Shown here piece after piece: positions 48,909 to 53,773 of a stretch of DNA of 64,000 bases. The translations under genes were made by a program, and so were the position numbers. The stretch is from Bacteriovoracaceae bacterium (GTDB lineage Bacteria > Bdellovibrionota > Bacteriovoracia > Bacteriovoracales > Bacteriovoracaceae). The notes beneath the pieces were generated by a model. It worked only from the letters and a program-made list of their open reading frames with translations. It had not been told where the DNA came from and made no database searches. The stretch lies in assembly GCA_016786485.1 (NCBI GenBank), contig JAEUWD010000045.1, positions 1 through 64,000 of the forward strand. The letters run 5' to 3'. How positions within the stretch are numbered: position 1 is the stretch's first letter; each line of letters begins with the position of its first letter.

Positions 48909-48934
48909 AAAAAAAAGGCCCTCTTACGAGGGCC
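48909..48934 (-). terminator. Intrinsic terminator of the VWA lipoprotein gene
   Basis: Minus-strand stem GGCCCTC-GTAA-GAGGGCC (48934-48917) followed by eight T (48916-48909), six bases past the stop at 48940. The rest of the 48666-48908 gap is AT-rich; I see no gene there, only the upstream region of the 47625-48665 gene. Confidence 0.93.
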
Positions 48935-50088: not shown

Positions 50089-50430
50089 TTAAAAATTTTT
50101 AAGGTTATTAATTTTAGTGATAGCGTCCGTAAAATTTTGAGCGTTAACGTCTTTTTCAATTTCTTTCAGTGCTTCTCTTAATTCCGATGAATTTGTAATG
50201 ATTGAGTTATCAATCATTGGACGATAATTAGTGATATCTCGACGATAATTTGCAATACGAGTTTTCGAGTAGCGCATTTTATTACCATTTGTAAAAGTTG
50301 GTGACTTTAAGACTTTGATCCAATTAGCAGCATCCGTTTCGTAATTAGTAATAACATTAGTAATATCCACAGCTGCTTGAGACTGTGACAAAAAAGACAA
50401 CATAATAGCGATGAACAATAATGTTTTCAT
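50089..50430 (-). CDS. Small secreted protein upstream of the VWA lipoprotein
   Basis: 113 residues with signal peptide MKTLLFIAIMLSFLSQSQA. The mature part is helical and polar, rich in Asn/Thr/Ile (TNVITNYETDAANW, RRDITNYRPMIDNSIITN, KEIEKDVNAQNFTDAITKINNL), with no cysteine. It is the first gene of a two-gene operon with the VWA lipoprotein (12-base gap), so it may be its ligand or chaperone; that is inferred from position only. No family is recognised. Confidence 0.62.
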   Translation of the reverse strand: MKTLLFIAIMLSFLSQSQAAVDITNVITNYETDAANWIKVLKSPTFTNGNKMRYSKTRIANYRRDITNYRPMIDNSIITNSSELREALKEIEKDVNAQNFTDAITKINNLKNF

Positions 50431-50533: not shown

Positions 50534-52402
50534 TTAAAAATAGTACATATAGCCCAGCTGAGACTCATGATCGGTTTGATAAGAGATGTGCTCCAGGTTG
50601 AGGGCATGATTTTTCTTAAAGCTCCAACGTAAAATGTTTTTCCATAAATTGGTTTCTTTCAGTTGGCTAAAGTCATAGCGTAGATGCTGAAATTTCGTGC
50701 TTAAATTCAGGTTAAAACGTGTTTGTAGTAAAAGCCCGATTGATGGTCCAGCTCCCAGCCTAAAATGATTTTGTTCAAAATGCGGATTGTAATTAAATTC
50801 ACCTTCAAGATGAGTCATAAGATAAAACTTTTCAAGTATTGGATAAGTAAGTCCTAGACCCACTTCCGTTGTTCCGCTTAAACAATTAAAGCATTCAGCA
50901 TCTCGCAAACGTTTTACACCCAGATAAAGTTTATAGCTTGGATCAAAGAAATATTTTTCGATAGGAATAAGTGCTTCTGCATTAATAAAATCGATTTGAT
51001 GGACCAGTGGTTTACGATTTTCATACTTACGTAGAGAAAGATTTAGCATTTCTAGGTTCGACATCGGATTGCCAGTAAACTGATCGTGCACATCATGTAG
51101 CGCGAAACGATAACGAAGTTCTGTATAGTTGTTGAATATGTCAGATTTGCCAAAATTTAAATTGGCCCGACGCAATTCATGAGCATCATGGGGCTGATCA
51201 TTTTCATCTCGCGGAATTTCTTTAGGTAGCACGCGAATTTTGGTTTGGGCCAGTGCTAATAAAATTTTTGATTTTTTTGCCGTCACTTCTTTATCTTCAC
51301 TTAGAAGATCTTTGGCATTTTCATAGTCGAAATAATCGATTGCGATATCAAGTACCTTGGCCTTCTTTTCAACCCCTACGTTAGTGAGTCTTTGGTTGTC
51401 ATAATCGTTTTTCAAATAACCATCGAGAATATCTTTTTCTTCTGTCGTAAGAAGTGAAAACTTTTTTTCAAATTGCTTACGTTTGGAAGGTCGATATTTG
51501 ATACGACTGACTAAGCCAGGACTTCTGACGATGGCCTTTACGGTATCGACGGGCGTAACAAAAGTTTGCAATGAATCTGTCAGCTTTAATTCTGGTCGAA
51601 CCGTATCGAGTAGGAATAGTAAATGATATGAACAATTTTCATCAAAATAAAAATAATCAAAATAGGTATTACGCATTTCCCAAATATTTGCGACTAAGAA
51701 ATTTAATTCAGTTTGATTAAACTCCATTTCATAAATCCACAGGTCACGACTTTCATAATCATTGTATTCACGAACTTTGTAGTAATAAGGTAATGTGGCG
51801 AAACGCCCTTCGAAACCTCCAAAGATGCCTGCCACTCCATAGAGAAAGGAATTACTGGTGGTTACGACTGCCGCGTAATTAATTCCGTTGTCTAAAAGTT
51901 CGCTGCGTTCAGATTCCGAAGAAGATTCTTGTGGCGAAATCCGTAGTAACGTATGTCCGAAGGCGGAAGCTGGGCGTGAAATAAAATAAGAAGAAAAGAC
52001 CATATGAACTTTGCGTGGGTTGAGCCGTTTGAAGAAGACCGAAAATTCAGGACAATTGTTCCAAATATTATACTCAGGAATATCTTTTAAATGTTTTTTT
52101 AAAAATAAATAACGAGCGGGAAAGCGACAAGCATAAGTTTCACCACGTATGATAGTATTTTTTTTGGCGGCTTCGATATTAGCGGTGAGTTCAGCTTGCG
52201 GATCATATTTACCATCAGGTGAAACAAAAAAATCTTTTCCATCGGCCAAGGATTTTTGATCTTTGTATCGAAGTAAGTTAAGCCATTGTTGAGATTGAAC
52301 TAAGTTTTCGTCAGCGAACGCCGTGAAATTTAATAATAAAAAAAGGGGGAAGTGAAACTTCCCCCTGGTAAGAAAATAAAAAGTTATCTTAATTAGATAC
52401 AT
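50534..52402 (-). CDS. DUF4105 (Lnb-type) periplasmic protein with C-terminal barrel
   Basis: 622 residues. The DUF4105 region (about 110-300) shows MVFSSYFISRPASAFGHTLLRI, NYAAVVTTSN, FGGFEGRFATLPYYYKVREYNDYESRDLWIYE and a cysteine motif FDENCSYHLLFLLD; the family is thought to be NlpC/P60-like, with His and Cys as candidate catalytic residues. The last 180 residues read as barrel strands ending in YMYYF. The only normal start is ATG 52402, which overlaps the DUF3015 stop by 10 bp. The next 20 codons contain a perfect terminator hairpin (52338-52365), so expression may depend on readthrough. The signal peptide is odd, with two basic residues among hydrophobic ones. Confidence 0.78.
   Translation of the reverse strand: MYLIKITFYFLTRGKFHFPLFLLLNFTAFADENLVQSQQWLNLLRYKDQKSLADGKDFFVSPDGKYDPQAELTANIEAAKKNTIIRGETYACRFPARYLFLKKHLKDIPEYNIWNNCPEFSVFFKRLNPRKVHMVFSSYFISRPASAFGHTLLRISPQESSSESERSELLDNGINYAAVVTTSNSFLYGVAGIFGGFEGRFATLPYYYKVREYNDYESRDLWIYEMEFNQTELNFLVANIWEMRNTYFDYFYFDENCSYHLLFLLDTVRPELKLTDSLQTFVTPVDTVKAIVRSPGLVSRIKYRPSKRKQFEKKFSLLTTEEKDILDGYLKNDYDNQRLTNVGVEKKAKVLDIAIDYFDYENAKDLLSEDKEVTAKKSKILLALAQTKIRVLPKEIPRDENDQPHDAHELRRANLNFGKSDIFNNYTELRYRFALHDVHDQFTGNPMSNLEMLNLSLRKYENRKPLVHQIDFINAEALIPIEKYFFDPSYKLYLGVKRLRDAECFNCLSGTTEVGLGLTYPILEKFYLMTHLEGEFNYNPHFEQNHFRLGAGPSIGLLLQTRFNLNLSTKFQHLRYDFSQLKETNLWKNILRWSFKKNHALNLEHISYQTDHESQLGYMYYF
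52338..52365 (-). terminator. Intrinsic terminator inside the 5' end of the DUF4105 gene
   Basis: Minus-strand stem GGGGGAAGT-TTC-ACTTCCCCC (52365-52345) followed by seven T (52344-52338). It begins 28 bases after the DUF3015 stop, so it serves as that gene's terminator, yet it lies within codons 13-22 of the downstream reading frame. Confidence 0.9.
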
Positions 52403-52842
52403 GCCTTATTTTCTACAATAATGTTTGTGATTCTGTCATTAAGAGTCTCAGCAGAAGCTTGACCTTTAAAGATAGACTCATACTTTGATTGTAAAGTAGA
52501 ACCCATTGATTCAGTGTTAGCACATCCATATAGACTGCTTAATGAAGCAAGAGTTTCGCCGTTTCCACGAGCGATATCGTTTGCTAGAGCAACTTTGTTT
52601 GCTTCGATGAAAGAAACTTGAGCAACTTTAGTTTTGTCGTCTACTTGACACTCAGATGTACCTGAAGACATGCCAAAAGTTTGGTTACCTGATGAACCGT
52701 TGAAAGTTGCAGCAAGTACGTTCCATACTAGGCCAGATTTTTCTTTGAACATGATTGAACCAAGACCACAACCAGCTGGACCAGCTGCGAATGAAGCAGC
52801 AGAAAGTGAAAGTAGCGCAGAAACTAAAAGTAATTTTCTCAT
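52393..52842 (-). CDS. DUF3015 family secreted protein
   Basis: 149 residues with signal peptide MRKLLLVSALLSLSAASFA. The DUF3015 block is clear: AGCGLGSIMFKEKSGLVWNVLAATFNGSSGNQTFGMSSGTSEC, followed by a helical C-terminus and a final Cys. The function of the family is unknown; it is periplasmic or surface-located. ATG 52842 is chosen since AAGGAG lies six bases upstream; the frame open to 52911 adds residues before the signal peptide. The gene leads an attenuated pair with DUF4105. Confidence 0.85.
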   Translation of the reverse strand: MRKLLLVSALLSLSAASFAAGPAGCGLGSIMFKEKSGLVWNVLAATFNGSSGNQTFGMSSGTSECQVDDKTKVAQVSFIEANKVALANDIARGNGETLASLSSLYGCANTESMGSTLQSKYESIFKGQASAETLNDRITNIIVENKACI

Positions 52843-52930
52843 TGAAGACTCCTTTCTGAGAATAGAATTTTGAATAGTTAATAAGTTAACATGACCCCGT
52901 AACCGCCACAATCTTAAACTGATGCGGAAA

Positions 52931-53773
52931 TTATTTTATCTGAGATAGAAAGTGGAGAAACTTAGTTTTGTATTCGCCACTATTTTTGAAAAAGGCATCG
53001 ATGTGTTTTGAATTTTCAATTTTCCATAACCATTTTGGTTCTGAGCTTAAATGGAATATTTCTTCGCCAAACTTGTACGGCACTATCGTATCGTTCACAC
53101 CGTGAATAATTAATTTCGGCGTCTTGTCATTTGGTAAGTAACTTTGTGATTCCATCTCGTCTGAGACGAGTAAGTAGGCGAGTGGACTGAAAAGAAAAGT
53201 CAGCCAATGATTGGTCAGTTTATCAAAGGCAATGTCTTGATAGGAACTAAAAGTTGAGTCAAGCACTAGTAAAGAAATTTTATCTTTATGTTTGAAATCA
53301 ATCAAACTTCTGGCCGCAATAATTCCACCCAAGCTTTGGCCGTACACAATTATTTTTTTTGATTTACGAATCTCCGACCATTTCATACCTTCTTCCATCG
53401 CCGCGATGCCATCTAAATAAGTTCCGTTTTGATCAGGTTCACCCGCCGACTTTCCATAACCACGATAATCAAAAATAAAAAGGTCATAACCATGTTCGGT
53501 TATCCAGGCCAAATTAAAAAAGTGAGTTGAGATATTTTCAGCATTCCCATGAAAGAAAATAATCGTGCCTAAAGGTTGTTTCACTTTTTGTGCAAAAATT
53601 TTCCAAGCATGGAGTGGAGTTTGATCCTTAGATTTAAATCTAAACTCTTCGTAAATATATTTAAAATCACTTGGTTTTCGAATTTGTTCTTTATGTGGAA
53701 AATAAAAAAGGTAACTACAGCCTGAAAGACTTAAAACGAAGAGAAGAAAAAAGATTCGCTGACAAAAGTTCAT
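52931..53773 (-). CDS. Alpha/beta hydrolase lipoprotein
   Basis: 280 residues. A lipobox (LLFVLSLSGC, Cys at 19) is followed by an alpha/beta hydrolase: oxyanion HGNAEN (about 75-80), nucleophile Ser in YGQSLGG (near 145), acid in GVNDTIVPY (near 228) and His in SKHIDAFF (near 258). It resembles the YhhM/BEM46-type hydrolases (FDYRGYGKSAGEPDQ). Substrates may be esters or lipids in the envelope. Its start is 19 bases after the amidohydrolase stop, so the two probably share a transcript. Confidence 0.83.
   Translation of the reverse strand: MNFCQRIFFLLFVLSLSGCSYLFYFPHKEQIRKPSDFKYIYEEFRFKSKDQTPLHAWKIFAQKVKQPLGTIIFFHGNAENISTHFFNLAWITEHGYDLFIFDYRGYGKSAGEPDQNGTYLDGIAAMEEGMKWSEIRKSKKIIVYGQSLGGIIAARSLIDFKHKDKISLLVLDSTFSSYQDIAFDKLTNHWLTFLFSPLAYLLVSDEMESQSYLPNDKTPKLIIHGVNDTIVPYKFGEEIFHLSSEPKWLWKIENSKHIDAFFKNSGEYKTKFLHFLSQIK

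Follow-up and report, generated by a model that had tools for sequence, protein, structure and literature searches.

In this study, a window of 64,000 nucleotides (contig JAEUWD010000045.1, positions 1 to 64,000, assembly GCA_016786485.1) was analysed. It comes from a Bacteriovoracaceae bacterium, a relative of the Bdellovibrio-like predators. On its minus strand, a gene for a DUF3015 protein overlaps with a gene for a DUF4105 protein, and a hairpin followed by a T-run is nested inside the first codons of the latter. The features are as follows.

52849 to 52855, minus strand: Shine-Dalgarno sequence AAAGGAG of the DUF3015 gene, 6 nt before ATG 52842 (pairing -8.2 kcal/mol)
52393 to 52842, minus strand: DUF3015 gene, 149 amino acids (Pfam PF11220, E-value 2.9e-38; translation)
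52395 to 52393, minus strand: stop codon of the DUF3015 gene (translation)
50534 to 52402, minus strand: DUF4105 / Lnb_N gene, 622 amino acids (PF13387, E-value 1.5e-50; PF25225, DUF7843; PF25222, DUF7840)
52393 to 52402, minus strand: 10-nt gene overlap ATGTATCTAA, with the DUF4105 start and the DUF3015 stop (sequence and translation)
52368 to 52416, minus strand: weaker helix 5′ of the putative terminator, with ATG 52402 in its internal loop (minimum-energy fold only, window sequence alone)
52344 to 52366, minus strand: putative terminator hairpin, 10 bp with a loop of 3, read as codons 13 to 20 (R-G-K-F-H-F-P-L)
52338 to 52344, minus strand: T7 run (U-tract), read as the Leu-Phe-Leu codons 20 to 22 in the signal-peptide core
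52313 to 52402, minus strand: signal-peptide coding region MYLIKITFYFLTRGKFHFPLFLLLNFTAFA (translation)

The PF11220 match was obtained with the longer ORF 52911-52393, and the DUF3015 protein looks secreted, judging from its N-terminus. No function of DUF3015 was found in a literature search. The DUF4105 gene scores 171.6 bits against PF13387, above the curated cut-off of 22.2, and its signal peptide appears by eye to be cleaved after AFA. According to excerpts of a recent report (PMC12994826), DUF4105 is Lnb, a lipoprotein N-acyltransferase of the NlpC/P60 superfamily in Bacteroides. H150 and C257 are invariant in 13 aligned sequences, including that of the window, and from the same excerpts they may be the catalytic pair of a permuted NlpC/P60 core. 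Since the genome also has a standard lnt gene (TIGR00546, 186.2 bits, cut-off 132.9), the DUF4105 copy in the window may have another substrate. The standard lnt is accompanied elsewhere in this genome by a second Lnb_N protein (G000:C29:83340-84572 and G000:C43:25798-26313). The next minus-strand gene past DUF4105 (50089-50430, 113 amino acids) codes for a protein whose N-terminus resembles a signal peptide and which matches no Pfam family.

The hairpin AGGGGGAAGT TTC ACTTCCCCCT (52366-52344, minus strand; -16.5 kcal/mol) begins 26 nt after the DUF3015 stop codon. The original prediction described a 9-bp stem and seven T residues. The nine pairs and the T7 run were found as described, while one outer A-U pair has to be added to the stem; six of the resulting 10 pairs are G-C, the loop has three residues, and the first T of the run is also base-paired within the hairpin. 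As a G+C-rich hairpin is directly followed by a U-tract, the sequence has the form predicted for an intrinsic (Rho-independent) terminator. The hairpin and the T7 run lie 3′ of the DUF3015 stop and within codons 13 to 22 of DUF4105. Thus, the same residues have the form of a terminator and are coding sequence, as had been proposed, and the proposal that the odd signal peptide results from this double use is a reasonable one, RGKFHFPL being the codon reading of the hairpin.

The 101 nt from 52430 to 52330 fold at -27.6 kcal/mol versus -13.4 (sd 2.9) for dinucleotide shuffles (z -4.9), and none of 200 shuffles matched this fold, part of the excess being due to the second, weaker helix. This helix (52416-52368, minus strand) does not compete with the terminator in the fold. 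When the window was recoded synonymously with the protein fixed and the gene's own codon usage, an equal terminator arose in 0 of 200 cases and any terminator at or below -10 kcal/mol in 4.5%; these figures come from a test restricted to loci already having a forced overlap, meaning that the in-frame start codons all precede the hairpin or fall within it and that the 60 nt after it contain none. An Rfam search of 52200-53000 found no family over the gathering cut-off; the best E-value was that of L20_leader (25.8 bits versus 58.7). Across the window there are 16 hairpin-plus-T sites at or below -12 kcal/mol, counting the best per 520-nt tile, and the DUF4105 site ranks third. A terminator-like 7-bp hairpin also lies right after a gene for a VWA-domain protein (48917-48934); it can be read on both strands, with the longer T-run on the minus strand.

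Where does translation of DUF4105 start? The frame opens with TAA GGC ATG, and the first start is therefore ATG 52402, which sits 36 nt 5′ of the hairpin and is the sole ATG, GTG or TTG of the frame ahead of it. A scan for these three codons in all frames from 52401 to 52286 found none. The claim that the only normal start lies upstream of the hairpin and overlaps with the DUF3015 stop was thus borne out, the overlap being 10 nt, and no standard start codon exists downstream of 52338 in any frame as far as 52286. The only near-start codons in the DUF4105 frame are ATT 52393 and ATA 52387, both 5′ of the hairpin. It was also considered that an error in the T-run length (an indel in the draft genome) might hide another start. 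This was rejected, because all frames from 52401 to 52286 are free of ATG, GTG and TTG, and such an indel would expose no alternative standard start in the stretch.

ATG 52402 has no Shine-Dalgarno sequence; its pairing with the anti-Shine-Dalgarno sequence is 0.2 kcal/mol versus -8.2 for the DUF3015 start. Such a sequence is also rare in the relatives described below. A Shine-Dalgarno motif was found at any feasible start in 7 of 101 DUF4105 genes and in 243 of 427 other tandem genes, although DUF4105 genes have fewer feasible starts (mean 1.26 versus 2.21), which lowers their count somewhat. With the first start only, the figure for the other tandem genes is 217/434, and 85% of 110 DUF3015 genes are preceded by a motif. 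Of the 25 DUF4105 genes with no detected DUF3015 neighbour, 14 were examined (L017, L133 and L202 are examples); among the 13 with a usable start, the motif was found at none of the chosen starts and at another start in two. Thus, its absence is a trait of the gene and not of the junction. It was dropped as a mark of the junction and is retained only as evidence of weak initiation. A scan for sigma-70-like promoters on the minus strand from 52842 to 52402 found no site, at low power. In total it found 18 sites versus 17.3 in shuffles, and it was also blank before DUF3015, so it hardly bears on whether the two genes are co-transcribed.

Is the hairpin common at this junction in other species? 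DUF4105 relatives at E-values of 1e-20 or lower were found in 104 of the 129 genomes of the family to which the window belongs. The loci of the family set are the matches listed plus 80 further places by rank, a few places at contig ends and the weaker tail being left out. DUF3015 lies directly upstream on the same strand in 125 of 138 DUF4105 matches; these matches include a split gene in two pieces (L009), and one junction occurs twice (L056 and L067), which leaves 124 unique junctions. The closest DUF4105 protein among the matches listed is about 42% identical to that of the window, so the hairpin cannot be traced from the window base by base. In a second set of named genomes (the best 80 of 206, overlapping in part with the family set), which spans Halobacteriovorax, Bacteriovorax stolpii, genomes of the Bdellovibrio group and Myxococcota, 72 of 84 DUF4105 matches are paired with DUF3015. 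In Bdellovibrio bacteriovorus kdesi (L202), DUF3015 was not detected upstream of the matched DUF4105. Within the window's own family, many loci have a terminator that overlaps with the DUF4105 start, and in several loci of the Bdellovibrio group (e.g., L188, L205 and L215) it is intergenic, ahead of the first fitting ATG.

A hairpin with a T-tract (dG of -10 or lower) follows the DUF3015 stop at 84 of 124 junctions and is absent at the other 40, whereas only 36 of 470 other tandem pairs located on the same stretches have one, the background genes having come from a simple, crude ORF picker. As the junction loci share ancestry, Fisher p-values were given no weight. In a similar scan, such a hairpin was found at 14/320 other tandem pairs with gaps of 30 nt or less, 14/113 with gaps of 31-100 nt, 12/167 with larger gaps, and at 62/402 convergent or other gene ends. 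The original prediction had asked whether relatives have the hairpin, and it was found that 113 of 124 junctions have one at dG of -12 or lower, compared with 68/470 other tandem pairs and 18/124 control stretches taken 600 nt past the junction. These strong hairpins carry a T-rich tail in 87 of 113 cases at the junction and in 25 of 68 in the other pairs. Among the named loci, those under 50% G+C have the hairpin in 40/45 cases at the junction versus 8/45 at 600 nt on, while over 60% G+C the test is uninformative (21/21 versus 17/21). One cluster comprises 15 loci, of which 11 lack a hairpin with a T-tract at dG of -10 or lower, although the stem is kept; termination therefore cannot be its sole role everywhere. 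The conserved junction hairpin probably keeps the product of the second gene low.

It was assessed whether the spacing is tuned for regulation. The median distance from the DUF3015 stop to the hairpin is +18 (at or under +27 in 58 of 69 loci), virtually that of ordinary terminators at convergent or other gene ends (+18.5). The idea was dropped, since a spacing shared with ordinary terminators does not point to tuned readthrough.

To quantify the coding overlap, the DUF4105 start was chosen solely from how far it lies from a conserved Trp motif, ignoring the hairpin. This worked for 110 of 124 loci; in the other 14, either the anchor was unusable or no start codon preceded it by 22-60 codons. 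In 43 of the 110 loci, 10 nt or more of the hairpin are coding, where synonymous recoding gives an expectation of 10.2, and the whole hairpin is coding in 31, where 4.7 are expected. By this test, a terminator is absent from 41 of the 110. Among the remaining 69 loci, 31 have the chosen start upstream of the hairpin and 16 have it within the hairpin; in the other 22 the start follows the hairpin, by no more than 10 nt in four and at a greater distance in 18. By hand count, 25 of the 48 clusters formed at 50% protein identity contain an overlap, which thus is not the oddity of a single lineage. A forced overlap as defined above exists at 42 of 124 junctions versus 13 of 470 other pairs, or 2 of 226 where the second gene looks secreted. 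At another gene pair (L107, near 9439 in the oriented sequence), a hairpin with a dG of -24.8 and a T-run holds the first start of a secreted-looking protein of 284 amino acids. Seven of 121 loci with an anchor were flagged as lacking an in-frame ATG, GTG or TTG. Three of these look like misplaced anchors, while four (L075, L121, L100 and L106) seem real and seem to reflect rare start codons or assembly errors; L075 has an ATT at -9 from the DUF3015 stop, the position of the ATG in the window.

Compensatory changes were found in clade A (nine sequences), whose ATG is located within the 3′ arm or directly next to it. Both sides changed in 6 of 12 pairs. On four of five measures none of 500 shuffles equalled the real alignment, while the fifth (the number of pair types) was reached by 64 of 500; shared ancestry alone can yield an excess on some of these measures. 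Nine of the ten printed members were aligned, L037 being left out owing to a loop insertion, and pairs were counted in this clade only. A synonymous change between the AGA and AGG codons of Arg has its counterpart in the non-coding arm. In clade C (five of eight members aligned), the only differences are G-U changes on one side of the stem and a single A-G mismatch pair. In clade B (14 of 15 members aligned), one pair has changed on both sides; covariation is scant because the stem is nearly invariant. Clade B, to which a Bacteriovorax stolpii genome belongs, keeps the stem around CAGGTCCCATG, and its T-run is often poor. The hairpin in this clade may therefore act on translation.

Terminators within operons are already known. 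The E. coli ampC attenuator doubles as the terminator of the frd operon; it resembles the present case in that a single hairpin terminates one operon and controls the gene that follows. In contrast to the hairpin described here, the ampC attenuator is part of a leader that has its own promoter, outside signal-peptide codons. In the archaeon Methanococcus maripaludis, intra-operon terminators (ioTTS) lower the expression of downstream genes, as supported by mapping, blots and mutants in the excerpts available of PMC10450193. The likeness to ioTTS is the location of a terminator inside an operon; unlike the archaeal elements, the one described here is a bacterial hairpin in the coding sequence of the next gene, recurs at one junction and is predicted from sequence (as compared with the same excerpts). 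At tR2 of E. coli, a ribosome at a stop codon less than about 27-30 nt away blocks termination by degrees, according to portions of PMC4824070. As with tR2 and the pyrBI attenuator in those portions, the distance from stop to hairpin could matter here, the 26 nt of the window being at the limit of the range over which the effect is graded and the spacers of most relatives (58 of 69 at or under +27) within or at the limit of this range. Unlike those terminators, which are intergenic or in a leader, this one has a spacing no different from ordinary terminators. Translation of DUF3015 might modulate readthrough, but such control is not claimed. The literature search, including the available portions of PMC4824070, PMC12994826, PMC7815308 and PMC10450193, found no account of the DUF3015-DUF4105 junction. 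In summary, the junction arrangement is real, recurrent and unusual, while the element is of a known kind.

The explanation I regard as probable is that a conserved intra-operon terminator lets only some of the RNA polymerases into DUF4105, resulting in much DUF3015 and little DUF4105. DUF3015 and DUF4105 would be the two genes of one operon, transcribed from the DUF3015 end, and the hairpin with its U-tract would end most transcripts past DUF3015. The polymerases that read through would yield the DUF4105 mRNA, whose start is without a Shine-Dalgarno sequence. As a consequence, DUF3015 would be abundant and DUF4105 scarce. The high DUF3015:DUF4105 ratio that had been foreseen agrees with this, as the hairpin form and the context of the start codon would predict it. 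Because the genes abut, the terminator and the DUF4105 start share bases. The Leu and Phe codons of the signal-peptide core would supply the U-tract and the codons preceding them the hairpin.

It was originally proposed that translation of DUF4105 melts the hairpin. In such a translation-controlled attenuator, a ribosome that initiates at ATG 52402, possibly by re-initiation past the DUF3015 stop, would closely trail the polymerase and block the hairpin, resulting in readthrough. The start in the window overlaps with the DUF3015 stop 36 nt before the hairpin, the chosen start lies within -20 to +3 of that stop in 22 of 110 loci, and nearby ribosomes do block terminators in the portions of PMC4824070 cited above. 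However, only 31 of the 69 terminator-bearing loci have the start ahead of the hairpin, so melting cannot be the conserved mechanism of the family. Besides, there is no Shine-Dalgarno sequence (pairing of 0.2 kcal/mol), and initiation would have to take place within the time in which the polymerase covers roughly 65 nt (a rough estimate). As an explanation of the junction I consider this quite unlikely, while in the window melting by a ribosome from ATG 52402 may occur. Were a ribosome involved, one halting at the DUF3015 stop would be an equally good candidate, as the 26-nt spacer is at the edge of the blocking distance of tR2. A translational gate is unlikely, if somewhat less so: the hairpin in readthrough or processed mRNA would bury or crowd the DUF4105 start, which would be translated only when DUF3015 ribosomes arrive. 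The 16 of 69 loci with the chosen start inside the hairpin and the Bacteriovorax stolpii clade, with its kept stem and often poor T-runs, are in line with this. However, the start in the window lies outside the hairpin, and a gate does not need the T-rich tail that strong hairpins at the junction carry more often than those of other pairs.

The over-represented tail also speaks against a hairpin for mRNA stability, which would shield the 3′ end of the DUF3015 RNA after cleavage, the unequal amounts then arising from decay and not from termination. Some junction hairpins have no T-run, and differential decay within operons is known from what is available of PMC5927463, but I consider this reading improbable. 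Finally, could the arrangement be due to chance? Low-G+C signal-peptide codons would yield T-runs and occasional hairpins: the Leu and Phe codons TTT and TTA give T-runs free, and 4.5% of the synonymous recodings of the window yield a terminator at -10 kcal/mol or better. However, the excess of coding overlap (43 observed versus 10.2 expected), the rarity of forced overlap among signal-like tandem pairs (2/226 versus 42/124 junctions) and the covariation in clade A make chance very hard to believe. The partial intra-operon terminator is thus retained as the preferred explanation.

A bolder version of the terminator explanation is conceivable but doubtful. The hairpin might be a dual device limiting an Lnb-like lipoprotein acyltransferase, in that it ends transcription and also buries or starves the start codon. 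The relatives of Bdellovibrio would then have rebuilt it from differing sequences, with signal-peptide codons serving as an arm and the U-tract, because too much of the enzyme in proportion to DUF3015 would be harmful.

A terminator whose hairpin and U-tract also serve as signal-peptide codons, and which is found in unlike sequences at one junction throughout a bacterial family, would show that a protein sequence can be constrained by an expression ratio. The arrangement further suggests a cooperation of DUF3015 and the DUF4105/Lnb-like enzyme in unequal amounts, which would provide a lead on two little-studied families.
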